Of a stretch of 64,000 nt of DNA, positions 3,262-27,314 are shown one piece after another. The notes beneath the pieces are model-generated. The model saw nothing but the letters and a program-made list of their open reading frames with translations. It did not search any database and was not told the DNA's origin. How positions within the stretch are numbered: position 1 is the stretch's first letter; each line of letters starts with the position of its first letter. This DNA comes from an uncultured Schlesneria sp. (GTDB taxonomy: Bacteria; Planctomycetota; Planctomycetia; Planctomycetales; Planctomycetaceae), in contig CAIOKO010000143.1 of assembly GCA_903858935.1 (NCBI GenBank), positions 24,841-88,840 on the forward strand, written 5' to 3'. The translations under genes and the position numbers were made by a program.

Positions 3262-3987
3262 ATGAGCCGGTTGTCCACATCGCAAAACCTACTCAGACCG
3301 CAACTTTCAATTCCGTCTTCGCCAGTCAGTCAAAGTCATTTGTCGGATTGGGTGCTGTCGATTCCGGGTGTCTCCCGGGTTGTTGATCGGATCGGAGTGA
3401 CTGAATTTCGTCGGCGAATTTTCCACATGTCACCATCGCTCATGCCGATGGCCCTCCCATTTGTACCGCATCATGATGTCTGGGGGGCGCCGCTCCTTTG
3501 TATTCTGTTTCTCTCGACAGTCACGATTCTGGTACTTGCTGTCGTACTGGGACCTTTTCTGGTCCGTAACGGTGAAATTAACTGGATGGGAGCGGTGTTG
3601 GGTTATATGGGGCCAGTTGTTGGCTCACTGTTGCTGTTTCCTGGACGCGCGGAATGGGGACTGATGACGTTGCAGATTCTTGCGCTGGGGGACGGGTCGG
3701 CAACATTGGGTGGGTTGATGATTGGTGGACGTCGACTTCCCTGGAATCGAAAAAAGACATTCTCGGGTTTGTTCTGCTTCGCGGTCGTTGGCTCGCTCGC
3801 TGCGTCATACAGTTTTTGGGGCGAATCCCGCCCCGGGGTGCCGTTTGCAAAAGCCTTCCTGATTTGCAGTGTCGCAGCGGCGTGTGCGGCGATTGTCGAG
3901 TCGCTACCAATTCGGTCGAACGACAATCTTCGAGTTGGAACAACAGCACTGATCGTTGGGATCGTAATGAGTTTGCTCGTGATTTAG
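3262..3987 (+). CDS. Integral membrane protein, possible dolichol/phytol kinase-like (SEC59/VTE5) CTP-dependent lipid kinase
   Basis: Multi-TM ORF; GDGSATLGGLMIGGRRLPWNRKKTFSGLF ... AAIVESLPIRSNDNLRVG resembles the GD.A..G...G..K..EG / E.P..DN motifs of the family. Confidence 0.5.
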   Translation: MSRLSTSQNLLRPQLSIPSSPVSQSHLSDWVLSIPGVSRVVDRIGVTEFRRRIFHMSPSLMPMALPFVPHHDVWGAPLLCILFLSTVTILVLAVVLGPFLVRNGEINWMGAVLGYMGPVVGSLLLFPGRAEWGLMTLQILALGDGSATLGGLMIGGRRLPWNRKKTFSGLFCFAVVGSLAASYSFWGESRPGVPFAKAFLICSVAAACAAIVESLPIRSNDNLRVGTTALIVGIVMSLLVI

Positions 3988-4045
3988 GTGGCGACTGTTC
4001 GGAACAGACGGCAGATCAAAACGTGGTCAAGGAAGTTGTTGTAGC

Positions 4046-5188
4046 ATGTCCGCAGGGTTCACATCGACGACTTTGTTAAGCAGAATAAGTCGGCTTTCAA
4101 GCCAACCCGTAGCCAAGGCTGTCGGCTCAGCGGTTCAGAAAGAATTGCCAGCACAGCCAGCGCATGGGAACGCCACCAGTCTGGCGGAAGTCGTTCATCT
4201 TCGGAAGAGCTACGGCAATCACCTGGCAGTTAAAGACGTTAGTTTCAAGTTGCAAAGGGGTGAAGTTCTAGGATTACTGGGACCAAACGGAGCAGGTAAA
4301 AGCACGACGATGATGATGCTGGCAGGGTTACTGACCCCGACCAGCGGTGACGTCTTGCTTGATGGCCGAAAATTCGATGGCCGCAATCATGACCTTCGTC
4401 GAATGCTGGGGGTTGTTCCCCAGGAATATGCGATCTATCAAGAATTGAATGCGATCGATAACCTGATGTTTTTCGGCAAACTTTATGGTTTGCGAGGCCA
4501 GGTGTTGAAGGATCGCTGCGATGAGGTACTGGAACAGATTGGCCTTGTTGAAAGTGCGAAACGACCCTCGGGTGACTATTCCGGTGGGATGAAGCGTCGG
4601 CTCAACTTCGGTGTTGCCCTGATGCACAAGCCGTCAATTTTGATCCTCGATGAACCGACAGTCGGTGTCGATCCCCAGTCTCGGTCGCATTTGCTGGAAT
4701 GCGTTCGGCGCCAGGCATCTGAAGGTGTCGGGATTGTTTACGCCAGCCATTACATGGAAGAGATCCAGTCGATCTGCCATCGTGTTGCCATCGTGGATCA
4801 CGGCGAGGTGCTTGTCGATGACACGATTCCCAATCTGATTGGGGGATCGGCCTCTGACTTGTACCTGTACGTCAATAAAACGACGGGAATTTCCGAAGCG
4901 CTCGGAAACCTGGTGATTGTTGGACCTGGTAGTGACGGTGAGCCTGCAGTGATAGTTCCTGGGGAAGCCCCACCTTCGGGTAAACATGCTGATGTCAGTT
5001 CATTGCGTTACGGGTTGGGATCACTGGCGCAAGAGTCGCCTCGAATTTCCCCTGAGCTGTCGTGGCGATTGCAGACGGTCCTGTTCAAGTTGGGAAACCT
5101 GGGAATTGATGTCCTGCGGATTGAGACTCAGCAATCGAATCTTGAACGGCTTTTCCTTCAACTCACGGGAAAGAGATTGCGAGACTAG
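4046..5188 (+). CDS. ABC transporter ATP-binding protein (ABC-2 type exporter)
   Basis: Walker A GPNGAGKST, signature YSGGMKRRLN, Walker B LILDEPTVGVDP. Confidence 0.95.
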   Translation: MSAGFTSTTLLSRISRLSSQPVAKAVGSAVQKELPAQPAHGNATSLAEVVHLRKSYGNHLAVKDVSFKLQRGEVLGLLGPNGAGKSTTMMMLAGLLTPTSGDVLLDGRKFDGRNHDLRRMLGVVPQEYAIYQELNAIDNLMFFGKLYGLRGQVLKDRCDEVLEQIGLVESAKRPSGDYSGGMKRRLNFGVALMHKPSILILDEPTVGVDPQSRSHLLECVRRQASEGVGIVYASHYMEEIQSICHRVAIVDHGEVLVDDTIPNLIGGSASDLYLYVNKTTGISEALGNLVIVGPGSDGEPAVIVPGEAPPSGKHADVSSLRYGLGSLAQESPRISPELSWRLQTVLFKLGNLGIDVLRIETQQSNLERLFLQLTGKRLRD

Positions 5189-23879: not shown

Positions 23880-24097
23880 GTTGACCTCATGATTTTCGTC
23901 GTTCGAACTCCTCAGATCGTTGTTTTTACTTTTCACTGAGTTTTTCGTTTTGTATGGCGAATCGGTTCGTAAGTTCCTCTTGTCCGTTTTTCGCGGTCGC
24001 GATTACAATCAGGTTCTATCCAGCGCCTCACCTTTGTCAGTCACTTTACGCCGCCAAGGATTGCGCGGCGCAGATGCGTTTCGCCAAGGAAAGAATC

Positions 24098-25042
24098 ATG
24101 GACGAGCAACTTGATCAAGTACATTCCATTCCAGAACCGTCGCGACGACGACTTGGACGTGGCTTGAACGCTTTGATGGGAACCGCTTCGATCGGCGGTA
24201 CCGATGAGGCGAATGCTTCCAGTCAAACAGAAATTTCCGTCGAATTGATCGAGCGAAATCCGTTTCAGCCGAGGCAAGATTTTGATCAGACGGCGATTAA
24301 TGAGTTGGTCGACAGCATTCGAATCCACGGCGTCTTGCAGCCGCTTCTGGTTCGAGCCGCAGGTGATGGCTACCAGTTGATCGCGGGTGAACGACGATTG
24401 ATCTCGGCCAAGAAAGCGGGCCTGCATCAGGTTCCGTGTCGAGTTCTCAGCCTTACGGATCAACAGGTCAGCGAAGTCGCGCTCGAAGAAAATCTGAAGC
24501 GACAGGATCTGAATGTACTTGAAAAGGCGATTGCCTTCCAAGACTATCTGAAACGGTTCGGTTGCACGATCGAAGACTTGGCCCGACGACTCTCGTTCGA
24601 ACGATCCACGGTCAGCAATATGTTGCGACTTTTGGAACTTCCTGAAGCTGTGAAAACCGACCTTCGCGCTGATAAGATCAGTGCTGGACATGCTCGCGCA
24701 TTGCTGGCTCTGAAAAGTGAAGACGCCCAAGTTGAGCTTTCTCAGCGAATTCAAAAAGAGACTTTATCAGTTCGAAAGACGGAAGAGGCCGTTCGGGAAC
24801 TGATCGCCCCGAAGGATGCGGATGTCGTGCCTTTCCCTACATCCGAAGAAAAGACAGGGACGCCTGCTGCAAGTCACACGTCCCACATCGCGGGGCTTCA
24901 GAATCAGCTTCGAGATTGGCTGGGAGCCAACGTCGAAATCAAGCTTTCGGGAAAAGCCAAGGACAAAGGCAAGATTATTATTGATTTCGGGTCAAACGAC
25001 GATTTTGAGCGAATCGTGGGCAAATTACAGCGAGCTGCATAA
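24098..25042 (+). CDS. parB: ParB/RepB/Spo0J chromosome-partitioning protein (ORF track extends to 23954; likely start MDEQLDQ)
   Basis: RRRLGRGLNALMG; NPFQPRQDFDQTAINELVDSIRIHGVLQPLLVR; YQLIAGERRL; HTH region; parS-like sites immediately downstream. Confidence 0.95.
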   Translation: MDEQLDQVHSIPEPSRRRLGRGLNALMGTASIGGTDEANASSQTEISVELIERNPFQPRQDFDQTAINELVDSIRIHGVLQPLLVRAAGDGYQLIAGERRLISAKKAGLHQVPCRVLSLTDQQVSEVALEENLKRQDLNVLEKAIAFQDYLKRFGCTIEDLARRLSFERSTVSNMLRLLELPEAVKTDLRADKISAGHARALLALKSEDAQVELSQRIQKETLSVRKTEEAVRELIAPKDADVVPFPTSEEKTGTPAASHTSHIAGLQNQLRDWLGANVEIKLSGKAKDKGKIIIDFGSNDDFERIVGKLQRAA

Positions 25043-25057
25043 TTCTGACAAGTTTTC

Positions 25058-25071
25058 GTTTCACGTGAAAC
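25058..25071. promoter_or_regulatory. parS-like ParB binding site 1
   Basis: Perfect palindrome GTTTCACGTGAAAC, matches the core of the bacterial parS consensus TGTTNCACGTGAAACA. Confidence 0.9.
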
Positions 25072-25118
25072 AGCGACATTGACGGTTTGGTCGTCGCTCC
25101 CTAAACTCTCCGCTCGCG

Positions 25119-25193
25119 CGGGATGTAGCTCAGCTTGGCTAGAGCGCCTGGTTTGGGACCAGGAAGTCGCAGGTTCGAATCCTGTCATCCCGA
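25119..25193 (+). tRNA. tRNA-Pro (anticodon TGG)
   Basis: Acceptor CGGGATG/CATCCCG, anticodon arm CCTGG-TTTGGGA-CCAGG, T-arm GCAGG-TTCGAAT-CCTGT; CCA not encoded. Confidence 0.97.
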
Positions 25194-25490
25194 TTTTTTC
25201 CGAAGTCAGCAAGGCAGCTCGATTAGAGCTGCCTTGCTCCTTTTTAGCGTCAAACAGTTTGATCTCTCTCATTTGCGAAGAGAAACGGGTCAAACGGTTT
25301 GGCTGAAAAATCCGAACTGATGTCGATCGACCGGGTGCCACGATTGTTTCTTTTACCGTCGAACGGCTTTCCGAAAGAAAGCCCGGCGAAGTGGGATTGA
25401 TCGTGTAGACGTCATCCCATTGCATTGATAGCTGCGGGGCAAACGAAAGATTCGGTGACGATTTAACGCGACGTTCTGGGTTACTTCAAT

Positions 25491-27215
25491 TTACTCAATG
25501 ATGTCCCCCGCAGCCTTCAGTCGTTTCACGTGAAACATAATCGGACCAGATGTCCTTCCCGGCTGGCTTTCAATCGTGTTCACCGCAAATTGCTCGATCG
25601 GCAATTCTCCAAGAATTGCTGAAACGGCATCTGCCTCGGCGTTTCCGCCATCATGCCCGGTGTATGCAAGCGCCGTCAACGCTCCACCGGGCCTTAACAA
25701 GGTGAGCGCTTGAAGAATTCCTTTTCGAGTTGACTCGGAACTCGTCACGACATTCTTGTCTGCTCCTGGAAGATATCCAAGGTTAAACATCACTGCGGCG
25801 ACCCTACCGTGATACTCTCGAGGGATAAGACGTGTGAGATCGGCGTGGTTACCGTGGATCAATATGACGTTTTGTACTTTGGCGTCATTGAGCCTCCGTG
25901 CCGTTTTTTCGAGAGCGATCTCTTGAATATCGAATGCAAAAACTGTCCCCTCGGGGCCTACAAGCTCCGCCAGGAATTGCGTATCGTGCCCGTTGCCGGC
26001 AGTTGCATCGATCGCGATTTCGCCTTTACTAACGAGGTCTCGAAGGGTGTCATGGGCTTGGATTGTCAAAGCCTGATTCTTTCCGCGTTTCACGTGATTG
26101 TTCAATGAAGTGGTCTCCTTTCCAAATGAACTCAACGATACCACCCTCGAGGTCCAGTTCGTCTTTCTGTTGAGGTCAACCGACGCATCGACCTGGCGAC
26201 CTTCGATCAACATACAGGCCATCTGGTTGGCAAAGAATGGAGCTTGAAGGACTCCTTTTGAACCGAGTCCGTTGAAGCAGGCGAGGCGAGGCTCGGCAGG
26301 TAGACGTCCGAGAATGGGATATTGATTACGGTGGATGGGGCGAATTCCCGCCTCATGAGCAACAACTTCGATCGGTAATCGAAGAAACGAAGTCAGCTTA
26401 CTTACGATTTCGTTTCGTCCTTTTTCCGTGGGGACTGCGTCCAATGATTTCCAGTCATAGGTCGATCCGGTTTTGAAAAGTTCTTCTCCGAAGGGTGCGA
26501 GCCAGACACCTTGATGCAGGACACGGCTCTCTGCTAACCCTGGAATTCTGAGTGTGAGAATCTCACCTTTCGCCGGCTTGAACTGGACGTGACATAACCA
26601 CGGGTTATTAATCGCTTCAACCCCTTGGCAAAAGATGAGTGTCTTCGCTCTGATGCCAAGCGTCGGTACGACAACTCCGTCTTGGTTGATTTGCAAGTCA
26701 CGAGAAACATCCACGTCACTGGAATGGAATGAATTTTCTGCTTCAAAGGTTTTTCGTGATGCGTCCAGGTAGCGGGAAACTTCCAGCTGCCCCCCATCCG
26801 ACATTTCAAAAGCTCCCATCGGATTGTCGAACCAGGTCTCATTGAGATGTCGGAGGGGTTCGCTGACGATTCCAAGATATTCTCCAGCATTCCTCCGGCG
26901 TTGAAACGCTGAGGCTTCAGCTTCGTTGGCAAACAGTCTGACCATCGATCGTCGTGAAAAGAATTGGCTTTTCGTTTCCGACTGGACTCGATCGTAGAAC
27001 GAAATTGCGGCCGTCCATAACTCATCGAAGCGCCATGACTTGATCATCTTTTGCCCGGTGATCGGCGTAACGAGTCCCGCAGCGATCCTTGACGAAGTTA
27101 CGGGTTCCTGACGGTCGACAACTAAAAATCGAGAACCGGCCCAACGAAGACACCACGCGAGAGACGTCCCTGCGATTCCCTGACCCACGATGACGAAATC
27201 GAATTCGGATCTCAT
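25491..27215 (-). CDS. Fusion: N-terminal FAD-dependent oxidoreductase (MnmC1/DAO-like) + C-terminal YtqB/MnmM-like SAM methyltransferase
   Basis: N-term FVIVGQGIAGTSLAWCLRWAGSRFLVVD; C-term IAIDATAGNGHDTQFLAELVGPEGTVFAFDIQ...VMFNLGYLPGADK...GGALTALAYTGHDGG. Confidence 0.88.
   Translation of the reverse strand: MRSEFDFVIVGQGIAGTSLAWCLRWAGSRFLVVDRQEPVTSSRIAAGLVTPITGQKMIKSWRFDELWTAAISFYDRVQSETKSQFFSRRSMVRLFANEAEASAFQRRRNAGEYLGIVSEPLRHLNETWFDNPMGAFEMSDGGQLEVSRYLDASRKTFEAENSFHSSDVDVSRDLQINQDGVVVPTLGIRAKTLIFCQGVEAINNPWLCHVQFKPAKGEILTLRIPGLAESRVLHQGVWLAPFGEELFKTGSTYDWKSLDAVPTEKGRNEIVSKLTSFLRLPIEVVAHEAGIRPIHRNQYPILGRLPAEPRLACFNGLGSKGVLQAPFFANQMACMLIEGRQVDASVDLNRKTNWTSRVVSLSSFGKETTSLNNHVKRGKNQALTIQAHDTLRDLVSKGEIAIDATAGNGHDTQFLAELVGPEGTVFAFDIQEIALEKTARRLNDAKVQNVILIHGNHADLTRLIPREYHGRVAAVMFNLGYLPGADKNVVTSSESTRKGILQALTLLRPGGALTALAYTGHDGGNAEADAVSAILGELPIEQFAVNTIESQPGRTSGPIMFHVKRLKAAGDIIE
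25523..25536. promoter_or_regulatory. parS-like site 2 (inside the 3' coding region of the FAD-MTase fusion)
   Basis: GTTTCACGTGAAAC(A). Confidence 0.88.
26087..26100. promoter_or_regulatory. Degenerate parS-like site 3 at the domain junction
   Basis: GTTTCACGTGATTG (left half and core conserved). Confidence 0.5.
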
Positions 27216-27231: not shown

Positions 27232-27245
27232 GTTTCACGTGAAAC
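27232..27245. promoter_or_regulatory. parS-like site 4
   Basis: GTTTCACGTGAAAC(A), 17 bp upstream of the minus-strand start at 27215. Confidence 0.9.
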
Positions 27246-27300: not shown

Positions 27301-27314
27301 GTTTCACGTGAAAC
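27301..27314. promoter_or_regulatory. parS-like site 5
   Basis: GTTTCACGTGAAAC. Confidence 0.9.

Follow-up and report, generated by a model that had tools for sequence, protein, structure and literature searches.

An oxidase–MnmM fusion from a Schlesneria-like planctomycete as a probable alternative to bifunctional MnmC

Known routes to mnm5(s2)U34

MnmEG makes cmnm5U34, and MnmC1 oxidizes cmnm5U34 with FAD; MnmL is the radical-SAM protein YtqA. For bacteria with neither MnmC nor MnmL, we know of no enzyme assigned to the conversion of cmnm5U34 to nm5U34. MnmL and MnmM reportedly form a non-MnmC route to mnm5(s2)U, which is said to have been described by Jaroch et al. in J Bacteriol in 2024, with an abstract that mentions fusion proteins. 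Gammaproteobacterial MnmC (MnmC2-MnmC1) unites a SAM-dependent methylase with an FAD oxidase that has the glycine-oxidase fold in one protein, which carries out the same two steps that we predict for the fusion described here (PMC3648344). The two active sites of MnmC lie ~45 Å apart, and release of the tRNA between the steps is thought likely (PMC3648344). B. subtilis MnmM methylates nm5(s2)U34 (PMC9976899). The MnmM (YtqB) proteins of B. subtilis and S. aureus stand alone, and the Gram-positive oxidative step is attributed to MnmL. For the organisms that they studied, Cho et al. had anticipated either an operon or an oxidase-methylase fusion, but neither was found.

Our analysis concerns an open reading frame in which MnmM is fused to an oxidase. 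Despite its likeness to MnmC, this protein has the reverse domain order, carries MnmM in place of Methyltransf_30 and has an oxidase of another clade. It shares MnmM with the MnmL-MnmM pathway, which uses MnmL, a protein for which the host genome has no match above cut-off. MnmM, MnmC and MnmL are thus already known; the new element, with prior notice possible, is MnmM fused to or paired with a clade of glycine oxidases that is not MnmC1. Full-text literature searches returned no report of an oxidase-MnmM fusion or of such a conserved pair, although an earlier mention in Jaroch et al. 2024 is possible.

The fused protein and its two halves

The window, a stretch of 64,000 nucleotides from a Schlesneria-like planctomycete, carries an uninterrupted frame of 574 codons running from 27215 to 25491 on the minus strand, a strand that the initial annotation had not given, with the following features.

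25491..27215, minus strand: oxidase-MnmM fusion ORF, 574 aa (ORF list, Pfam, NCBIfam, AlphaFold2)
26166..27215, minus strand: FAD oxidase domain, residues 1-350 (Pfam DAO, E 6e-27; DAO-only model; nearest structures)
Residues 11-16, within the oxidase domain, minus strand: dinucleotide-binding motif GQGIAG
26256..26342, minus strand: oxidase active-site segment, spanning R292 through the K320-containing GSKG motif (aligned to E. coli MnmC and ThiO)
26061..26165, minus strand: interdomain linker, residues 351-385, partly disordered (pLDDT <50 at 356-373)
25521..26060, minus strand: MnmM methyltransferase domain, residues 386-565 (NF053511, 181 bits; structure matches 8h0s, 8h1b)
25653..25985, minus strand: MnmM catalytic and U33/U34-binding segment with D411, N478, Y481, K487, Y518 and H521 (B. 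subtilis MnmM equivalents)

Pfam places DAO at residues 6-333 (E 6e-27), followed by rRNA_methylase (PF06962) at 425-561 (E 5e-36), and Methyltransf_30 (PF05430) is absent from the protein. The initial annotation had described a reversal of the order seen in MnmC and had proposed profile searches of both halves, and this result, DAO at the N-terminus and PF06962/MnmM at the C-terminus, agrees with it; every motif that it quoted (DATAGNGHDT, AFDIQ, MFNLGYLPGADK and YTGHDGG) is found in the ORF. The AlphaFold2 model, likewise proposed there, has a mean pLDDT of 90.9 and displays two confident domains joined by a linker disordered at 356-373. This model was built from 32 aligned relatives, and its pTM of 0.67 makes the way in which the two domains are set against each other unreliable; the DAO domain modelled alone gave a pLDDT of 88.4 and a pTM of 0.88. 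A structure search of a viral structure library returned generic FAD and methyltransferase matches only.

Among named relatives, uncultured Schlesneria (Planctomycetaceae) stand nearest, and the nearest of these, L073, is likewise a fusion (78% identity over the oxidase half). The same architecture is seen in G298 and other species, and this recurrence indicates that the fusion is no assembly artefact. In relatives with separate genes the linker site corresponds to a stop/start overlap, for example ATGA. A GTG codon lies within the linker and may be an internal start.

The C-terminal half (386-565) is, on its sequence, a member of the MnmM family. It scores 181.2 bits against the NCBIfam MnmM equivalog NF053511 (cut-off 135) and 124 bits against PF06962 (cut-off 22.7), a family that carries the name 'putative rRNA methylase', and its best structure matches are the B. 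subtilis and S. aureus MnmM proteins with the tRNA anticodon stem-loop (8h0s, 8h1b). In B. subtilis MnmM, the substitutions K11E, D34A, N101A/D, Y104A, K110E, Y141F and H144A each leave almost no activity (PMC9976899). A gap-free alignment with the B. subtilis MnmM structure maps these seven positions, in order, to H388, D411, N478, Y481, K487, Y518 and H521, of which six are identical; the position of K11 is occupied by histidine in 15 of 18 aligned sequences. The YtqB/MnmM type first proposed for this half is therefore upheld by curated cut-off, fold and catalytic residues alike.

Residues 1-350, the N-terminal half, form an FAD enzyme of glycine-oxidase type that falls below the cut-offs of both the MnmC1 model TIGR03197 (48.7 bits; cut-off 174.2) and the ThiO model TIGR02352 (81.8 bits; cut-off 250.8). 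In a 56-sequence tree its clade (100/100) stands apart from the MnmC1 clade, which includes E. coli (97/92), and from the ThiO clade (100/95). By membership, these sequence comparisons assign the half to neither MnmC1 nor ThiO. A joint clade with MnmC1 has an approximately unbiased (AU) p of 0.386 and one with ThiO a p of 0.163, and the data reject neither.

The active-site residues R292 and K320 (in GSKG) correspond to R567 and R618 of E. coli MnmC, and each is retained in ≥95% of 94 relatives. In the oxidase half of MnmC, Kim and Almo list G271, G273, G287, G518, R567, G578, G619 and R653 as more than 98% conserved (PMC3648344). All eight align to identical residues in the fusion, but several are common to ThiO and mark the fold only, so that this match is weakly diagnostic of MnmC1. 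The xRNG motif of glycine oxidase is replaced by GSKG, for which the MnmC1 counterpart is GSRG, and the half has GxTY, as does MnmC1, where ThiO lacks the tyrosine. In such motif detail the clade leans towards MnmC1. The description 'MnmC1-like' in the initial annotation consequently holds for predicted function and for the active-site motifs and fails for membership.

These data bear on the ancestry of the oxidase. It might be a true, fast-evolving MnmC1 whose partner was swapped from MnmC2 to MnmM, a reading of descent that is compatible with the function we favor. The retention of the positions conserved in the MnmC1 half, the common GSRG-like and GxTY motifs and the AU value for a joint clade speak for this, while the separate, fully supported clade in the best tree and a score far beneath the MnmC1 cut-off speak against it; we see it as a serious possibility, though one with the odds somewhat against it.

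The half could instead be a ThiO-type glycine oxidase that serves thiamine synthesis or the breakdown of amino acids and sits with MnmM by chance. Its score is higher with the ThiO model than with the MnmC1 model, and glycine oxidases match it better than MnmC does in both sequence and structure. Nonetheless, the assignment to ThiO was rejected, given the distance from the ThiO cut-off, the GSKG motif in place of xRNG, the position outside the ThiO clade and the presence of a bona fide ThiO as a separate gene in the host genome (268.7 bits, above the cut-off of 250.8). Tandem linkage to MnmM also recurs in three phyla, and we regard a chance association of this kind as highly improbable.

The nearest solved structures to the oxidase half are IdaA (6pxs), CmiS2 (6j38) and glycine oxidase. 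IdaA converts an N-carboxymethyl secondary amine to an amine and glyoxylate (PMC7312458), as does CmiS2 (PMC11284099). Both are FAD enzymes with small-molecule substrates and share about 20-23% identity with the oxidase half. Their reaction is the one required here, which makes conversion of cmnm5U to nm5U plausible from the fold; that tRNA is the substrate is inferred from genomic context. The substrate could be another N-carboxymethyl amine, with no context pointing to one.

Pairing of the oxidase with MnmM and other methylases

The host genome (7.93 Mb, 99.96% complete) was examined by profile searches, on which the gene absences given here are based. It contains MnmG. The absence of canonical mnmC2, which had been put forward for confirmation, is borne out: there is no PF05430 in the genome and no full canonical MnmC elsewhere. 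The best match to the radical-SAM protein MnmL (TIGR01212) reaches 44 bits against a cut-off of 180. With MnmC and MnmL absent, the step from cmnm5 to nm5 otherwise has no candidate in this genome.

MnmM was found in 19 of 300 genomes sampled from Planctomycetota and the oxidase in 14, all of which carry MnmM (hypergeometric 3e-20, not corrected for phylogeny). These include members of the host's family, in which 14 of the 17 genomes sampled have both proteins and three have neither, while MnmG is present in all 17 and MnmC2 and MnmL are above cut-off in none. Within the 14, the genes lie in tandem in ten, are fused in frame in two (the window and G298) and lie apart in two. The tandem pairs overlap by 1-13 bases, with ATGA in six of the ten, and are presumably translationally coupled; since this overlapping pair is the common state in the family, the fusion is most simply derived from it. 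In another Schlesneria relative (L075), the oxidase and MnmM share one frame with a single stop codon between them at about 5057-5059, which is either a near-fusion intermediate or a recent split.

Elsewhere in the phylum, the MnmM loci of G017, G060, G073 and G109 have no such oxidase beside them. MnmL is carried instead in G017, G060 and G265, whereas G073 (L024) and G109 (L019) have MnmM with no oxidase, MnmC2 or MnmL above cut-off. An apparent 720-aa fusion in G265 (L036), from another family, was rejected, as the open frame of its upstream part is spurious and lies in GC-rich DNA; by eye, the other frame there resembles an M24-type peptidase.

When 85,488 species genomes were searched with the oxidase alignment, at least 563 relatives were recovered. 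Among the best 80 of these, nine have MnmM fused to the oxidase, 28 have it next door and three have it within 3 kb, and the linked loci come from Planctomycetota, Verrucomicrobiota and Hyphomicrobiales. When the fused and adjacent states are mapped onto a 94-oxidase tree, about six changes are required, and the starred branches make at least three unavoidable for the fused label; from these changes there was probably more than one fusion event, including one in Akkermansiaceae.

Many Bacteroidota carry the same oxidase clade with MnmC2/MnmD instead of MnmM. The 47 oxidase-containing genomes divide into 18 with MnmM, 18 with MnmC2/MnmD, none with both and 11 with neither, and MnmL is found in five of the 47. 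The exclusion of MnmM and MnmC2 has a hypergeometric value of 8e-6, which is not corrected and is explained in part by shared ancestry. A home-made profile from seven sequences found no MnmC2 adjoining the oxidase in the Bacteroidota loci, so the link to MnmD there is one of co-occurrence only. Many of the 11 genomes with neither methylase are metagenome assemblies that may be incomplete, but one of them, Emticicia (L134), comes from an isolate and has neither MnmM nor MnmC2 above cut-off. The Emticicia oxidase lies ~2 kb downstream of a gene that resembles miaA by eye (765-1745, 3986-5056). The simplest reading of these sequence data is that one oxidase clade works with whichever nm5U methylase its lineage has.

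Comparative genomics therefore supports a link of the oxidase and MnmM to each other and to the wobble-uridine pathway. It also shows the fusion to be one form of a widespread overlapping gene pair, which the initial annotation, made from the single sequence, could not reveal. Such linkage indicates a shared pathway and does not give the exact step, and the superfamily also includes N-methyl amine oxidases; the oxidase might accordingly serve this pathway on a substrate other than cmnm5U, for example as a helper of MnmEG or in demethylation and recycling of mnm5U. We think this unlikely, given that the closest solved relatives cleave N-carboxymethyl groups, that the host is left with no other candidate for the cmnm5 to nm5 step, and that E. 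coli MnmEG is well established to need no such partner.

Proposed pathway and neighboring sequence

Our structural and comparative data suggest a model in which the fusion is an alternative bifunctional MnmC, with MnmM and a distinct oxidase clade responsible for the last two steps of mnm5(s2)U34 synthesis; we consider this reading likely. MnmE/MnmG would first make cmnm5U34. The N-terminal FAD domain would then oxidize the carboxymethylaminomethyl side chain at its secondary amine; the resulting imine would hydrolyze to nm5U34 and glyoxylate, and the C-terminal MnmM domain very likely uses SAM to convert nm5U34 to mnm5U34, as its conserved catalytic residues suggest. That the two proteins are fused here and encoded by overlapping neighbor genes in relatives makes it very probable that they perform these steps together. 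In the host lineage the two genes would have become joined through a short flexible linker, while in many Bacteroidota the same oxidase clade appears to pair with the unrelated methylase MnmC2/MnmD. Channeling is not required for this model, as the distant active sites of MnmC and the presumed release of its tRNA show; the flexible linker and the overlapping genes of relatives suggest that the benefit of the arrangement is co-production.

We propose, more tentatively and at somewhat less than even probability, that the oxidase is a third and separately recruited class of enzyme for the conversion of cmnm5U to nm5U. This would be a branch of the glycine-oxidase superfamily, separate from MnmC1 and with no relation to MnmL, that partners MnmM in Planctomycetota, Verrucomicrobiota and Hyphomicrobiales or MnmC2/MnmD in Bacteroidota and has been fused to MnmM more than once. 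In at least four phyla the oxidase clade offers a concrete candidate for the cmnm5U34 to nm5U34 step, and the fusion provides a single gene in which both steps can be tested together. If this assignment is right, bacteria have built the same two-step tRNA modification repeatedly, with oxidases and methylases as interchangeable parts.

The sequence around the fusion gene has further features. Four exact GTTTCACGTGAAAC palindromes of parS type occur within 2.3 kb (25058-25071, 25523-25536, 27232-27245 and 27301-27314) and adjoin a ParB gene at 23954..25042 on the plus strand. One of them falls within the 3' end of the fusion ORF, where it encodes FHVKR, and two lie just upstream of the ORF; the relatives L073 and L074 each have two such palindromes near the fusion gene. 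A 173-aa ORF at 24904-25425 on the minus strand, with MTGFEPATSWSQTRRSSQAELHP, overlaps tRNA-Pro(TGG) at 25119..25193 on the opposite (plus) strand and is almost certainly spurious. This tRNA gene is followed by a strong terminator-like hairpin at 25208-25238.
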